Origin: Candidatus Zixiibacteriota bacterium
Lineage (GTDB): Bacteria; Zixibacteria; MSB-5A5; GN15; FEB-12
NCBI GenBank assembly: GCA_019038695.1
Contig: JAHOYZ010000055.1
Coordinates: 1 to 39,378 of the forward strand
Direction of reading: 5' to 3'
Length of the DNA stretch: 39,378 bases
The position numbers were made by a program, and so were the translations under genes. This document shows, one piece after another, positions 5,742 to 35,377 of the stretch; positions within the stretch are counted from its first letter, which is position 1, and each line of letters opens with the position of its first letter. The notes beneath the pieces are model-generated. The model saw nothing but the letters and a program-made list of their open reading frames with translations. It had not been told where the DNA came from and searched no databases.

Positions 5742-7826
5742 TTAGTCGTTAGCTTCCGCCAGCGCTTTGGCCTCATCGATTACCTTCTGAGCAGCCTCGT
5801 GGGGAACGTCTTCATAGTGGGAGAACTCCATTGTGTATACACCTTGTCCCTGAGTCATCGAACGCAGATCCACCGAGTACTGATACAATTCCGCCTGCGG
5901 AACTGTAACTCTGATACGTTGATAACTGCCATCGGGATCCATACCCACAATTTTACCTCGACGAGATGACATGTCGCCCATTACATCGCCGGCATATTCT
6001 GACGGAACCAGGACTTCCACTTTGTAAACTGGCTCCAGCAGGACCGGTTTGGCTTCCATGAAGCCCTGTTTGAAGGCCATCAGGCCGGCAATCTTGAAAG
6101 CCATGTCCGATGAATCGACTTCATGGTAGGAACCATAAAAAAGAGTTACTTTTACATCTACTACCTGCGATCCAGCCAGGCCTCCGTTTGTCATCTGTTC
6201 AACAATCCCCTTCTCAACGGCAGGGATAAACTTGGAAGGGATGACACCGCCTTTGATGGCATCAATAAACTCGAATCCGCCACTACGCGTATTGGGTTCC
6301 AAGCGAATATGCACGTCGCCGAACTGACCTCGTCCGCCTGATTGTTTTTTGTGACGGTACTTGGTCTCGCACTTGCCCTTGATCGTCTCACGGTAGGGAA
6401 TCCTCGGCTTGGCCATCGCAATTTCCACACCAAATCGAGTCTTTAGCTTCTCATGAAGCACCTCTATGTGGGTGGAACCCTGACCCCACAGGACCAACTG
6501 CTTGAGGGCCGGATCAGCTATCAGACGGAACGTCGGGTCCTCGTCATTTAGCTTGTGCAACCCACTGGCCACCTTGTCGTCGTCACCTTTGGATTTGGCA
6601 CATACTGCTACATCCATAACCGGGTTGGGGTATTCTACCGGAGGTACGAACAGGTCCATCTTACCGCCGACCAGCGTATTGGTCGGATGCGAGTCTTTGA
6701 GCTTGGCCAGAACACCGATGTCTCCGCAGGCTACAGAACTCAGATCGGAGCGATTCTTCCCCTGCATGGTGTAGATCTGCGTCGCCCGTTCGGTCGAGCC
6801 GGTCTGTACATTTGAAAGCTCAGTTCCGGCCGAAAGTGAGCCGGAGAACAGGCGAAAATATGCAAGTTCACCAAGGTGTCCCTCTGAAGCCATCTTGAAA
6901 ATATAAGCCATCGGCTGCCCATTGGGATCACAGGACATCTCCTCGACTTCCCCATCATCATCCTTGCCAGCCTTGAAAGTGGATGTGATATCAGGAGATG
7001 GCAGATAAGACGTCACAAAATCAAGCAATGTGACAATCCCGATATTCTGTGCGGCAGAACCAAACAGGATAGGGAACATCGTTCCCTGCTGAATGCCAAG
7101 ACTTAGTCCACTCAGGAAATCGGCATCGCTGAGGGTGTCATCTTCGAGGTATTTCTCAGTTAGAGAGTCATTGGCTTCGGCAGCTACTTCGAGGAGATTC
7201 TTGCGGGCTGTCTCAGCGGCATCCTTCATGTCGTCAGGAATATCAATTTCTTTGGCTTTGCCGTCGTCACCAAATTCGTAAGCCTTTGCGGAAACGACAT
7301 CGACAATCCCCTTGAAGGAATCACCCTGCCCAATTGGTAGCTGGATCGGTACGGCTTGCTGTCCAAAAGCTGTCTGGATTGAGGTTACGGTCGCAGGCCA
7401 ATCGATATTCTCCATGTCCATCTTATTGACAAAAAAGAAGCGAGTTATCCGGAAGGGAGTCAGAGCTTTCCATTGTAGCTGGGTGCCTACCTCAACCTTG
7501 GCAGGAGCATTAATAACAAAACCAACAGCATCTGTAACTTTCGCAGTACTGACTAACTCGCCAATGAAATCTGAGTGCCCGGGGCAATCAAAGAAGTTGA
7601 ACTTTATGTCTTTCCACGGACAAGCCATCAGCTTTGTCGTGATTGACGTCCTTCGGGACATCTCCATATCCGTGTAGTCGAGGAAAGAGGAACCGGTGTC
7701 AACCGATCCGACACGATTGTTAAGACCGGTCACAAAGGCGACCGCATCAGCCACGCTGGTCTTACCACAGCCGCGCTGGCCCGCCAGGCAAAGATTGCGA
7801 ATCTTGTCAGTTGAATAATCCTTCAC
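5742..7826 (-). CDS. EF-G-like translational GTPase (EF-G2 type)
   Basis: 694 aa from a GTG at 7826, chosen because TCGGAGG lies seven bases upstream. A longer reading to 7934 would run through the promoter. All five EF-G domains are recognisable, ending in domain V (VYKVEVLVPSEYAGDVMGDMSSRRGKI). The G motifs are unusual: G1 is AGQRGCGKT (residues 15-23) instead of AHIDAGKTT, the switch I RGITI is replaced by RRTSITT (58-64), G3 is DCPGH (80-84), and G4 NKMD (134-137) is normal. This fits the EF-G-like subfamily (PRK12740-type; mycobacterial EF-G2), known for GTPase activity without proven translocation. It is probably not the main EF-G, which would normally sit with rpsL, rpsG and tuf. Its precise role is open. 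Confidence 0.88.
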   Translation of the reverse strand: MKDYSTDKIRNLCLAGQRGCGKTSVADAVAFVTGLNNRVGSVDTGSSFLDYTDMEMSRRTSITTKLMACPWKDIKFNFFDCPGHSDFIGELVSTAKVTDAVGFVINAPAKVEVGTQLQWKALTPFRITRFFFVNKMDMENIDWPATVTSIQTAFGQQAVPIQLPIGQGDSFKGIVDVVSAKAYEFGDDGKAKEIDIPDDMKDAAETARKNLLEVAAEANDSLTEKYLEDDTLSDADFLSGLSLGIQQGTMFPILFGSAAQNIGIVTLLDFVTSYLPSPDITSTFKAGKDDDGEVEEMSCDPNGQPMAYIFKMASEGHLGELAYFRLFSGSLSAGTELSNVQTGSTERATQIYTMQGKNRSDLSSVACGDIGVLAKLKDSHPTNTLVGGKMDLFVPPVEYPNPVMDVAVCAKSKGDDDKVASGLHKLNDEDPTFRLIADPALKQLVLWGQGSTHIEVLHEKLKTRFGVEIAMAKPRIPYRETIKGKCETKYRHKKQSGGRGQFGDVHIRLEPNTRSGGFEFIDAIKGGVIPSKFIPAVEKGIVEQMTNGGLAGSQVVDVKVTLFYGSYHEVDSSDMAFKIAGLMAFKQGFMEAKPVLLEPVYKVEVLVPSEYAGDVMGDMSSRRGKIVGMDPDGSYQRIRVTVPQAELYQYSVDLRSMTQGQGVYTMEFSHYEDVPHEAAQKVIDEAKALAEAND

Positions 7827-30842: not shown

Positions 30843-30971
30843 AGTCATATCAGACCAAGAATAGCTGCCTGCGGGTCGAAAGTCAAAGATGATACGGCAG
30901 TGATACTGCAAACTTGACAATTTCCTGCCCTCATGCGTCATTAGACTACTCTTATGAACGGGGAGAGGACT

Positions 30972-31721
30972 ATGAAGATTAGACAAGGGTTGATTGTTTT
31001 CAGTATAGCTGTTCTATTTACTGTGTACAGTGCTTGGTCTGACGATACGCCGATGCCAAACGTTCCTGAACATTACTCTTTACAGACGGCGGAGGAGGCT
31101 GTTGACCTGGCCCTGAAATACACGGGGTTTGACAAGCAACCCGGCTATGACCGAGCGACGAGCATTGCAGGGGTGCGGTTGGGGACAGTACGGGATAGCA
31201 CTACACCATTTCTCAGTGATAGCATAGATGGCCGGACGGCGTGGGTGATAGAATTCAAGGATGTTGTCTTTGAGCTTGGTCCTGAAGGTGGGAAGAAAGT
31301 GCTAACGGCTCCCTTCACATTTAGAGTGAACATGGACGCAGAGACAGGCCGTTTTCTTGGCGCGCGCTTTACATCGATCGATGACGAATCAGCATCAAAG
31401 CTCCAGCCGTCGGCCGACAACGCCTCCAGGGAACTCGAAATGTATGACTTGGCGAAGTATCACGGCATTCCGGGAAGTTGTCCTTCCAGAAGCATGGCGG
31501 AAGCATTGAGTACGTGGAAACACGCGGCACCTGGAAGCGCGAGACTCATAGTTATACACTACGTCCAATACACCCGTGGCTCTTCTGGCGACGACGAACC
31601 TTGTCCTGCCTGGGCAGTGAATCTGTACGGCCTTGGAGGGGGGACAGCCGGAAAGCGCTGGGCAATGAATGCGGAAACGGGCGAGTTTCTCTGGGTTGTG
31701 AACTGGCGGCCGGATAATTAA
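30972..31721 (+). CDS. Secreted PepSY-like protein, tandem paralogue 1
   Basis: 249 aa from the ATG at 30972, behind GGGGAGAGGA; an earlier ATG at 30954 would put the ribosome site inside the gene. Signal peptide about 1-22. The core LQTAEEAVDLALKYTGF, PGYDRAT...VRLGTV.DS...FLSDSIDGR and AWVIEFKDVVFEL recurs in the next two genes. Each half ends in a strand reading (N/D)AETGxFLxxx (MDAETGRFLGARF and MNAETGEFLWVVN), as at the end of PepSY domains, so the protein may be two PepSY-like units. This fold is my inference. Two Cys (near 170 and 218) are shared with paralogue 2. Function unknown. Its 5' leader resembles that of paralogue 2 and the relic at 33541. Confidence 0.8.
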   Translation: MKIRQGLIVFSIAVLFTVYSAWSDDTPMPNVPEHYSLQTAEEAVDLALKYTGFDKQPGYDRATSIAGVRLGTVRDSTTPFLSDSIDGRTAWVIEFKDVVFELGPEGGKKVLTAPFTFRVNMDAETGRFLGARFTSIDDESASKLQPSADNASRELEMYDLAKYHGIPGSCPSRSMAEALSTWKHAAPGSARLIVIHYVQYTRGSSGDDEPCPAWAVNLYGLGGGTAGKRWAMNAETGEFLWVVNWRPDN

Positions 31722-31804: not shown

Positions 31805-32602
31805 GTGAAAAGGCTGCAAGGACTCTTTGTGACTGTCGTTGTCATATGCTTGTGCGCTGCATTTGCAGCGGCCGACGATACACTCACGCCGGACGTCCCG
31901 GAGCACTATGCGTTACAGACGGCAGATGAGGCAATTGACCTGACACTCAAATACACCGGCTTTGAAAAGTGCCCTGGCTACGACCGGGCTACTACTATCA
32001 GAGATGTGCGACTGGAGACGGTAAACGATACTGCGACACAGTTTCTTCGTGATAACATAAATGGTCGAGAGGCGTGGATAATTGAATTTAAGGACGTTGT
32101 TCTCAAGTTAGAACTGGCCGGTTATGGAGAGTCCCAAACACTTCCAATGCTATTCCGAATAGTTATTGATGCAGAGACAGGTTGCCTCCTCTGGGCACAA
32201 ACCAATCCGGGCAAGCAGGCCACGAATGGTGCTGATTGTGGTTTCGGACAGCCAGTGATTCCTGAGTTTCAGGAGTTCTCTGGCGAAAGTAACCACGGTT
32301 TGCCGACGGAGCTTCCATTCCAGAGTCTTGCTGAGGTATTGGGAACTTGGAGACGTACAATTCCTGAGGCATCGACCCCAATCGTTGTGAACTACCTGAT
32401 GTACACTAGACCGGGTTCAGTCTGCGACACCGTACCCTGTCCAGTATGGGTCAAATACCATTACAAGGCGGGAGGAACTCTGATACGCGAGGTTGTGCAT
32501 GCTATGACAGGTGAGATGCTGTACAATGTCACATGTAGGCCCTCATCGGAACATGAAGGTCTTCCAGACCTCAGACAGATGGACCTGAAGGGGAGTGATT
32601 AA
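31805..32602 (+). CDS. Secreted PepSY-like protein, tandem paralogue 2
   Basis: 265 aa starting with GTG at 31805 behind TTAGGAGGAAATC. Signal peptide about 1-23 (MKRLQGLFVTVVVICLCAAFAAA). It is the closest relative of paralogue 1: PDVPEHYALQTADEAIDLTLKYTGF, PGYDRATTIRDVRLETVNDT and NGREAWIIEFKDVVLKL align almost without gaps. The first-half terminal strand is DAETGCLLWAQ, the second AMTGEMLYNV. It has more Cys than its siblings (PGYD preceded by KC, DCGFG, VCDTVPCP). TTGACA lies 50 bases before the start codon, as in paralogue 1, so each gene may have its own promoter. A double hairpin (32604-32645) follows the stop. Function unknown. Confidence 0.8.
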   Translation: MKRLQGLFVTVVVICLCAAFAAADDTLTPDVPEHYALQTADEAIDLTLKYTGFEKCPGYDRATTIRDVRLETVNDTATQFLRDNINGREAWIIEFKDVVLKLELAGYGESQTLPMLFRIVIDAETGCLLWAQTNPGKQATNGADCGFGQPVIPEFQEFSGESNHGLPTELPFQSLAEVLGTWRRTIPEASTPIVVNYLMYTRPGSVCDTVPCPVWVKYHYKAGGTLIREVVHAMTGEMLYNVTCRPSSEHEGLPDLRQMDLKGSD

Positions 32603-32603
32603 A

Positions 32604-32645
32604 CGCCCACTTTGTTTCAGTGGGCGGTAGACGCCCTCGTCTACC
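32604..32645. repeat. Double hairpin with GGYAGAC palindrome, copy 2
   Basis: CGCCCAC-9 bases-GTGGGCG (32604-32626) overlaps by one base GGTAGAC-GCCCTC-GTCTACC (32626-32645). It begins two bases after the stop of paralogue 2. Read on the minus strand, the second hairpin plus its CCGCCCAC flank matches 34802-34829 inside the TauE gene at all but two positions. Confidence 0.75.
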
Positions 32646-32783
32646 CCATGAGTGACTTGACATCATATGTGTGGATGTTATCTCGGACTGAACCCACAGC
32701 AAGCTGTGGAGCACCGATGGAGATTTGGGACGTGAACCCGTTGCCGTAAGTTTGTGACTTAACAAATATGGAAGGTGGACGTC

Positions 32784-33536
32784 GTGAGAAATATGTATGG
32801 TTCTTTAGTGATCATTATGGTCGTTATGACCGCAGCAACATCACTCATTGCACAGGAAACTGACGGTCGGGAAGTGGCTGATTCCGCTCAGGCGCTGGAG
32901 CTGGCATTGGCCTACACAGGTTTTGAGGAATATCCGGATTTCGACCTTAAGGATGCTCTGAGTCGGGTGGAAGAGGTGAAGTTCTGTGATTCTACAATGC
33001 CATTTCTTGCCGACAGCCTCGACGGGCTGCCCGCATGGGAAGTTGAGTTTCACGATATCATTTTGTATAGGTCGGCTTCGAGTCCAGGTTTGGGCAAGAA
33101 ACACCCCAAAAAAGTCACCGTATCGCTTGATAGAAAAACCGGCAAGCTGCTACGTATGACTGTTATAGAGATGGGTTTGCCTCGCGGCAGTCTCTATCCG
33201 AAGGTAGATTCTAAGACTGCAGAATCCAGACTGCAGTCGGTCAGTCTGCAGAGATTCCACGGATTGCCGTCAGAGCGACCAAAGGTGTCTCTTGCACGGG
33301 CCTTAAATAATGTGCGTGGAGGTAGTCCGCTCCTGTCCAAAGAAATCGTGGTCTACTATGTGTTGGAGTCTCGGCTTGAGAAAGAACCGTGGCAAGTGTG
33401 GGACATACACCTGTATCACGTTCCACCTCGACCGGACCGTCCAGAATTCCGTACTTCGATAAGGAGCAGAGATCACTACAGATGTGTGATTGATGCCGTA
33501 ACGGGAAAATTGCTCTGGGGAAATAATGTGCCTTAG
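32784..33536 (+). CDS. Secreted PepSY-like protein, tandem paralogue 3 (divergent)
   Basis: 250 aa, start taken as GTG at 32784, five bases after AAGGTGG; GTG at 32775 and ATG at 32793 are alternatives. Signal peptide about 1-24 (ending SLIAQE). The shared core is present but drifted: DSAQALELALAYTGFEEYPDFDLKDALSRVEEV, STMPFLADSLDGLPAWEVEFHDIIL. It ends in VIDAVTGKLLWGNN. It has lost the Cys pair seen in the C-terminal half of paralogues 1 and 2 and has a basic Lys/Gly stretch in the middle (GLGKKHPKKVTV). TTGACA lies at 32657-32662, 121 bases before the start. Function unknown. Confidence 0.78.
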   Translation: MRNMYGSLVIIMVVMTAATSLIAQETDGREVADSAQALELALAYTGFEEYPDFDLKDALSRVEEVKFCDSTMPFLADSLDGLPAWEVEFHDIILYRSASSPGLGKKHPKKVTVSLDRKTGKLLRMTVIEMGLPRGSLYPKVDSKTAESRLQSVSLQRFHGLPSERPKVSLARALNNVRGGSPLLSKEIVVYYVLESRLEKEPWQVWDIHLYHVPPRPDRPEFRTSIRSRDHYRCVIDAVTGKLLWGNNVP

Positions 33537-33654: not shown

Positions 33655-33677
33655 CTTGCTATGGGATTTGTGAACTT
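33655..33677 (+). repeat. Dispersed repeat, copy 2 (CTTGCTATGGGAT...)
   Basis: It matches 1315-1337 at 21 of 23 positions. It runs directly into the C-terminal codons of the DUF454 gene and the palindrome at 33687-33714. Confidence 0.7.
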
Positions 33678-33678
33678 G

Positions 33679-34137
33679 TCAGTTAGGTAGGTCGAAACTG
33701 TCTTCAGTTTCAACAGGTTTTGCTGGTTCCGCCAGCCTTACTGACTGTGCCATCATCTCCGCCGTTAGTGTTTTCAAATGCAATAGGTGTACAGTAACGC
33801 CGACCGCAACGATCCCTAAAAATCCACGAAGCCACCACGAAGATGCCACATATGTTGCGGAGTAGCCAATGACCAGCCACAGACTCGCCAATGAGATGGT
33901 TTTTGCCTGGAGGGTAATAGCCTTGTGTTCACGATAATTCCTGATGTACGCCCCCAGCCATTTGTGATTGATCAACCATTGGTAGTAGCTGTCGGATCCG
34001 CGAATAAAACAGGCGGCGGCCAGAAGCAAAAACGGAGTGGTGGGTAGCAACGGTACGAATACACCCACGGCTCCCAGCCCGACTGAGACAAATCCGGCGG
34101 TCATCAAAAACCATTTGGGCAGCGATGTCTTTTTCAA
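33679..34137 (-). CDS. DUF454 (YbaN-like) inner-membrane protein
   Basis: 152 aa, starting at TTG (34135-34137), with GGGAG seven bases upstream. The signature GAVGVFVPLLPTTPFLLLAAACFIRGSDSYYQWLINHKWLGAYIRNYREHKAI is the full DUF454 motif. Two further hydrophobic helices follow (about 80-98 and 102-120). The family (YbaN in E. coli) is a small inner-membrane protein of unknown function. The last ten or so codons (KPVETEDSFDLPN) coincide with the palindrome at 33687-33714, so the natural C-terminus may have been replaced by a repeat. It is divergent from TauE. Confidence 0.87.
   Translation of the reverse strand: MKKTSLPKWFLMTAGFVSVGLGAVGVFVPLLPTTPFLLLAAACFIRGSDSYYQWLINHKWLGAYIRNYREHKAITLQAKTISLASLWLVIGYSATYVASSWWLRGFLGIVAVGVTVHLLHLKTLTAEMMAQSVRLAEPAKPVETEDSFDLPN
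33687..33714. repeat. GTAGGTCRAAACTG palindrome, copy 1 (inside DUF454 end)
   Basis: GTCGAAACTG-TCTT-CAGTTTCAAC (33691-33714) with GTAG in front. The reverse complement of 35321-35348 agrees with it at about 25 of 28 positions. The element lies within the last codons of the DUF454 gene. Confidence 0.7.
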
Positions 34138-34358: not shown

Positions 34359-35309
34359 ATGATAGAGCTCCCGATCAGTGGAGTCGAGACATATTGGTGG
34401 CTGCCATCGCTGGTGGCGTTTCTTATCTCCTGTATGACCGTGACCGCTGGAATATCCGGCGCATTCCTGTTGTTGCCATTCCAGATGAGCGTGCTGGGTT
34501 ACACTGCGCCCGGAGTCAGTTCGACCAATCTTTTCTACAACATCGTTAGCATTCCGTCCGGTGTCTATCGCTACTCACGCGAGAAACGGATGATCTGGCC
34601 GCTGGCCTGGGCAATTGTAATCGGGATTGTACCCGGCATGTTTCTCGGAGCGTTGATTCGGGTTCACTGGTTGCCAGATCCCGTTCATTTCAAACCATTC
34701 GCCGGATTGGTGCTGGGCGTGATTGGCATTCGGCTGCTGCTCGATGTGATAAAGGGGAGTCGGGTAAAAGTGGCATCTTCGGGTGGTAATAACAGTTTGA
34801 AGGGGCAGACGAGGGCGTCTGCCGCCCACGAGAACGACAAAGGTTCAACCGAAGCAACCGATGTGCGATTTATTCTCTCCAAAATCAGCTATCGGTTTCG
34901 GGGGGAATCGTTTTCAGTCAATACGCCCGGACTAATTCTGTTGAGCCTGGTCGTCGGTATTGCTGGCGGAGCTTATGGTATTGGCGGGGGAGCGGTGGTC
35001 GCGCCGTTTCTGGTGGCGATGATTGGACTGCCGATATACACCATCGCTGGAGCAACGCTATTTAGTACACTCGTAGGCTCCATCGGCGGGGTCGTGTCCT
35101 ACTATGCGATAAGCCTTGCTTCGACGGGAGCTTCAGGTCCGGCTTCTCCCGACTGGCTACTTGGGGGGTTGTTGGGAGTGGGGGGGATGGCCGGAATGTA
35201 TGTCGGTGCACGTTTGCAGCGTTATCTCCCGGCGCGACTCATCAAAAGCGTACTAACTGTTTGCTTACTTGCCATCGCCACGAAGTACATCGCGGTGTTG
35301 TTTGGTTAA
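34359..35309 (+). CDS. TauE/SafE-family anion exporter with a repeat-derived loop
   Basis: 316 aa. Two halves of four hydrophobic helices each carry the family's repeated glycine-rich motif (ISGAFLLLPFQMSVLGY near 30-46; GIAGGAYGIGGGAVVAPFLVAMIGLP near 200-225). Members export sulfite, sulfoacetate or related organosulfur anions across the inner membrane. Between the halves, residues about 140-170 form a hydrophilic loop (VASSGGNNSLKGQTRASAAHENDKGST). Its DNA (34802-34829) is a palindromic repeat also found at 32618-32645, so the loop seems to have gained a REP-like insertion that kept the frame. The helices are intact, so the protein may still work. The substrate is unknown. Confidence 0.85.
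   Translation: MIELPISGVETYWWLPSLVAFLISCMTVTAGISGAFLLLPFQMSVLGYTAPGVSSTNLFYNIVSIPSGVYRYSREKRMIWPLAWAIVIGIVPGMFLGALIRVHWLPDPVHFKPFAGLVLGVIGIRLLLDVIKGSRVKVASSGGNNSLKGQTRASAAHENDKGSTEATDVRFILSKISYRFRGESFSVNTPGLILLSLVVGIAGGAYGIGGGAVVAPFLVAMIGLPIYTIAGATLFSTLVGSIGGVVSYYAISLASTGASGPASPDWLLGGLLGVGGMAGMYVGARLQRYLPARLIKSVLTVCLLAIATKYIAVLFG
34804..34823. repeat. GGYAGAC-N6-GTCTRCC palindrome, copy 3 (inside TauE)
   Basis: GGCAGAC-GAGGGC-GTCTGCC within codons 149-156 of the transporter. With its flanks GG and GCCCAC it matches the reverse complement of 32618-32647 over about 28 bases with two changes, which are complementary to each other across the stem. Confidence 0.8.
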
Positions 35310-35320
35310 GTGTTGATATT

Positions 35321-35348
35321 GTCGAAACTGAAGCCAGTTTTGACCTAC
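35321..35348. repeat. GTAGGTCRAAACTG palindrome, copy 2
   Basis: GTCGAAACTG-AAGC-CAGTTTTGAC then CTAC, between the convergent TauE and FG-GAP genes, in opposite orientation to the copy at 33687. It may serve as a transcript end for both genes, although no U-run follows. Confidence 0.7.
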
Positions 35349-35377
35349 GCCATTGACTAACTACCGCTCAATATTGT

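Follow-up and report, generated by a model that had tools for sequence, protein, structure and literature searches.

REPtrons combine REP elements with RAYT (TnpA-REP) transposases (PMC2817692, PMC3733652, PMC6006769, PMC8266576). In a published survey, canonical REPs were defined by a GT[AG]G foot (PMC6006769). Intragenic REPs which keep the reading frame have been reported from several phyla (PMC3733652), and tnpA-REP genes are also known to carry inserted REPs (PMC6006769). In view of these reports the preliminary description of the DNA studied here, which took such elements to be rare outside systems such as that of Rickettsia, was too strong. Published intragenic REPs include one same-site example, recB of two Xanthomonas species. 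Among the Rickettsia palindromic elements (RPE), RPE-4 and RPE-6 are CGTC-tagged repeats; CGTC repeats occur without a RAYT (PMC3733652).

Here we examined a palindromic repeat, family A, which lies in frame in a TauE/SafE family transporter gene of a Zixibacteriota genome (3.28 Mb in 58 contigs). The window, i.e. the whole stretch of 39,378 nucleotides that was analysed, is contig C55 of this genome, which has Candidatus Zixiibacteriota MAGs as its nearest named relatives. As in REPtrons, the repeat forms a hairpin whose foot, GTGG, conforms to GT[AG]G, is present in many copies and brackets a RAYT gene with inverted copies; likewise, several repeat families with RAYTs of their own share one genome. 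It departs from REPtrons in its low copy number (about 40), in the foot of family A, which is GTGG and not GTAG, and in its host phylum, Zixibacteriota. With the known intragenic REPs (PMC3733652) and the insertions in tnpA-REP genes (PMC6006769) it shares the in-frame position and the addition of about 10–12 residues to an otherwise normal protein; unlike in those intragenic REPs, the host is a TauE/SafE transporter. Similar to the RPE, palindromic repeats are found in frame in unrelated protein genes at tolerated sites. In contrast to RPE-4 and RPE-6, family A has a GTGG foot, carries no CGTC tag and brackets a RAYT gene. It resembles the RPE at the protein level only.

The TauE/SafE gene and its repeat

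The host gene and the family A copies of the window are as follows (the strand of a repeat is the orientation of its GTGG foot):

34359..35309, + strand, transporter gene of the TauE/SafE family, 316 aa, which hosts the in-frame REP (PF01925, 124.3 bits, cut-off 32.6; homologues can be aligned to either side of the loop)
34802..34829, − strand, REP family A core in TauE (28/28 identity with five other copies in the genome; 46 blastn matches)
34799..34835, − strand, REP unit in its probable full extent, with the weakly conserved borders (column conservation in 38 copies; alignment)
32620..32647, + strand, second copy of REP family A in the window, located between genes (inverted pair; one compensating stem pair)

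The core in TauE, GGGGCAGACGAGGGCGTCTGCCGCCCAC, begins at the third base of codon 148 and ends with codon 157 (K-GQTRASAAH). Direct reading showed the core to be free of stop codons in all six frames; thus, an insertion keeps the gene open if its length is a multiple of three. The element had initially been placed at 34796–34835. Its in-frame position in TauE holds; the core, 34802–34829, is slightly narrower. The two copies in the window form an inverted pair of 28 nt with 93% complementarity, in agreement with the pair of about 28 bases and compensating stem differences that had been reported. They differ by C->T and G->A. Because both changes fall on the two sides of one stem pair they compensate each other (stem arms GGCAGACG/CGTCTGCC versus GGTAGACG/CGTCTACC). 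The intergenic copy is located 18 nt past the stop codon of gene 31805–32602. This gene and gene 30954–31721 are tandem paralogues (31041–31267 and 31874–32100 are 72% identical at the DNA level over 227 nt); the gene which follows them, 32775–33536, has a weak PepSY match.

Is the repeat part of the conserved transporter? The REP-encoded peptide was absent from 29 homologues of relatives and from 34 homologues of named genomes (63 rows; the sets overlap and some rows are duplicates). The loop (query residues 128–172) comprises 45 residues here as opposed to 25–32 in Zixibacteriota, i.e. all loops in this phylum are shorter, as would be expected from the proposed insertion. The nearest orthologue, from the same genus and with 64% identity, has 17 residues fewer. 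About 12 of these 17 can be ascribed to a REP unit of about 36 nt; a unit of 28–36 nt thus leaves part of the excess unexplained. Some homologues from Desulfobacterota have a loop of equal or greater length, unrelated in sequence and slightly displaced; therefore, the loop region tolerates changes in length. A scan of genome contigs returned no TauE relative above 57% identity and no empty site to read. In the AlphaFold model of the TauE protein (mean pLDDT 86.5), residues 139–157 had pLDDT values below 50. This segment sits between the helix 112–132 and a short beta stretch and is predicted to be disordered. Orthologues sharing the loop in genomes without other copies of the repeat would have marked it as conserved coding sequence; no such case occurred. 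In view of the orthologues without the peptide and the identical copies genome-wide, we rejected the reading of the repeat as conserved TauE sequence. It is in frame inside a conserved gene and missing from the orthologues examined, which classes it as an intragenic REP.

Family A and the RAYT transposases of the genome

In the window alone, a loose palindrome pattern matched eight times (up to three mismatches) compared with 4.2 expected, which was not significant; the significance of the repeat thus rests on the genome-wide search. One stretch at 2313–2332, GGCAGACATTGTCGTCTGCC, just past gene 1903–2289, fits the loose pattern, not the family A loop, and is perhaps a terminator hairpin or a decayed REP copy. 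Genome-wide, the strict core YAGACGNNNNCGTCTR occurred 33 times compared with six occurrences of the reversed control. A blastn search with the TauE copy gave the 46 matches listed above, the best other one with E = 1.2e-10 and 33 identical bases beside a transposase gene. Altogether, the genome contains about 40 copies of family A, six of which are identical over 28/28 nt. A longer family A pattern was present in 39 of 79 relatives, the reversed control in none of the 79.

The conserved span in 38 copies consists of the 28-nt core, preceded by a weak A/T and followed by a weak GGAA. Beyond about −2 to +31 of the core, conservation is at background and the copies have unrelated flanks. On the minus strand of TauE the unit reads GTGGGC GGCAGACG CCCT CGTCTGCC CC. 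The folded unit has a GTGG foot and a 4-nt loop on a stem of 8 bp, beneath which one base bulges out. The foot is GTGG in most copies (fourth base G in 29 of 38, C in 8) and falls under the GT[AG]G rule. The REP strand folded better than its own shuffles, as RNA or as DNA (z about −3 to −4); for the RNA hairpin of the TauE REP −17.4 kcal/mol was calculated (z −3.5).

The hairpin is mainly intergenic. Only two of 38 copies are well inside supported genes, and in this family A differs from the RPE. Bacterial genomes are mostly coding. The scarcity of such copies despite a mostly coding genome argues that genic insertions were mostly purged or avoided. The ORFs over the other copies were examined and were mostly short or antisense. 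Three candidates for intragenic copies were rejected, an Asp/Glu-racemase ORF (C36), a DUF58 ORF (C22:74347) and a 345-aa ORF (C32). In each the REP is ahead of the conserved protein or at codon 0–6, probably upstream of the real start codon. A sigma-70 ORF of a relative (G016, L077) with the REP at codon 35 is a similarly doubtful N-terminal case.

Five Y1 transposase genes were identified in the genome, all above the NCBIfam REP_Tyr_transpos cut-off. The RAYT on C27 (7228–7740, 170 aa; 120.5 bits, cut-off 80) resembles the solved TnpA-REP structure 4ER8 (E = 2.8e-8) and has the HIH motif as well as the tyrosine in YIHNNPVKAGL. It is bracketed by inverted family A copies at 7152–7179, 48 nt before the start, and at 7745–7772, 4 nt after the stop codon. 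The RAYTs on C13 and C2 likewise have family A copies at a distance of no more than about 1 kb. In total, five copies are this close to a RAYT compared with about 0.15 expected (our own estimate for 40 copies and five RAYTs). RAYTs were present in 55 of 61 relatives, and among the REP matches listed some are near RAYTs in relatives as well (G005 C464, G022 C214, G006 C10). The C27 RAYT is likely the cognate transposase of family A. The genome-wide pattern and the RAYT association, both proposed as checks in the preliminary description, were borne out. Our literature search found no study of RAYTs in Zixibacteria.

Other RAYTs of the genome have repeat families of their own, with copies around TauE:

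33678..33715, + strand, REP family B copy, GTAG GTCGAAACTG TCTT CAGTTTCAAC (inverted pair; 42 genome matches)
35320..35357, − strand, REP family B copy in inverted orientation, 10 nt past the stop codon of TauE (inverted pair)
32690..32716, + strand, palindromic repeat family C copy, CCCACAGCAAGCTGTGG (26 genome matches)

Family B, also written GTAG GTCGAAACTG TCTT CAGTTTCGAC, has a plain GTAG foot. Its inverted copies bracket a RAYT (C15:85809–86213, within C15:85759–86339) and, in the window, the gene pair DUF454-TauE; the copy at 33678–33715 encodes the last residues of the DUF454 gene (33679–34137). Family C copies adjoin two RAYTs, that on C40 and that on C2. Another repeat, CTTGCTATGGGATTTGTGAACTT (33655–33677 and 1315–1337 of the window), is also found just upstream of the C40 RAYT.

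The DUF7948/SBBP loop

The second intragenic family A copy of the genome is at C23:20148–20175 (L012). It matches 28/28 and lies within the reading frame of a DUF7948/SBBP protein. Family A occurs in this loop in seven genera, always with that strand and frame. In relatives, identities of the REP were 28/28 in G033 and G006, 27 in G023, 26 in G021 and G003 and 25 in G022. Besides L012, the host entries with the in-frame REP in this loop are:

L147
L149/L075
L154
L162/L084
L169
L177

Degraded REPs were present in the loop of G024 and in a second gene of G022 (L164, L165). The loop of L182 (G006 C87) has two REP-derived peptides, NGRQTPSSVPDIRHQSD ... SGRQTPSSAPDMRHQPD, by all appearances a REP duplicated together with its flanking sequence. 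Other repeat-like peptides occur in the loops of L148, L149, L152, L162 and L181 (QPDLQT, TLSAVEG, TPSGVEG, VTLSLSKGG). This suggests that several repeat families land in the DUF7948 loop.

Does the shared position reflect a single old insertion? In six genes with a REP, the coding DNA past the loop is 66–83% identical, as opposed to 25–28 of 28 nt in the REP, and silent differences affect between one third and two thirds of the shared codons. In a tree calculated without the loop the seven REP hosts require six changes and cluster no more than shuffled labels do; a single-clade origin was rejected (p-AU 4.8e-6), in a tree with a short row for one host (G022) and with many weak branches. In G021 a sister paralogue of the DUF7948 gene lacks the REP (support 100/98). 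As judged from these sequence comparisons the pattern favours repeated insertion, or exchange of the loop between genes, over one old insertion. One gain followed by many losses, or conversion between genes, is a possible source of the pattern. The constant strand and frame would be accounted for by peptide selection, by directed insertion or by exchange between genes, each of which would suffice. We tentatively propose, at somewhat less than even odds, that a REP was inserted repeatedly in this one loop in seven Zixibacteriota genera in the same strand and frame (GRQTPSSAPD/GRQTSPSAPD), and that the TauE copy is a further product in another frame. The recurrence in one loop across many genera exceeds the published same-site case of recB in two Xanthomonas species.

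Probable origin of the repeat in TauE

With a probability of roughly 90%, the element in TauE is a REP, i.e. a short non-autonomous palindrome mobilised by a RAYT/TnpA-REP transposase, which was inserted in frame at a tolerant loop. This is what had been proposed from the window, and the genome-wide family and the RAYT bracketed by its copies substantiate it. In this process a family A copy would have entered the loop between the two halves of the transporter after the lineage had split from the sampled relatives. The insert of about 36 nt may have been mobilised by a RAYT, putatively that on C27, with single-strand cleavage guided by the GTGG foot. The frame would have been kept, leaving the gene open and adding about 12 residues to an unstructured loop. 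The REP in TauE is probably a nearly neutral passenger.

Alternatively, a further REP copy could have brought the repeat into TauE, through recombination or gene conversion and not by RAYT action. The borders of the insert are approximate, the REP units are short and the loop sequences of DUF7948 look exchangeable between genes, all of which would suit such an exchange. Yet, a second REP flanking the TauE site, which might have served as a partner, is absent at the locus, the flanks of the copies are unrelated and the association with RAYTs is strong; we regard this route as improbable. The 58 contigs of the genome and the several copies near contig ends (C42, C43, C53) bring up an assembly artefact, i.e. 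two metagenome fragments joined at a shared repeat. However, full-length orthologues match the two halves of TauE collinearly and in a single frame. A false join would therefore need two complementary halves of one gene, and this explanation is hardly credible.

The REP may also have been selected in TauE, either for its peptide or for an mRNA hairpin through which expression is tuned. This can be reconciled with the insertion of a REP. The stability of the RNA hairpin and the recurrence of an in-frame REP in one DUF7948 loop in seven genera speak in its favor. Nevertheless, TauE is a single case, the segment is predicted to be disordered, other TauE proteins do without the REP and most copies of the hairpin are intergenic. 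A selected role in TauE thus appears unlikely, and insertion of a REP at a tolerant loop is the preferred explanation.

The TauE case is a well-supported further instance of a known phenomenon; the DUF7948 pattern is the more interesting lead. RAYT-linked REP families act inside genes in the little-studied Zixibacteriota, and a likely cognate transposase has been identified. The recurrence in DUF7948 is a natural data set for the question of targeted REP insertion versus selection of in-frame REP peptides, a question that isolated intragenic REPs could not answer. If repeated insertion in one frame of the DUF7948 loop is true, it would mean either sequence-directed targeting or selection for the peptide.
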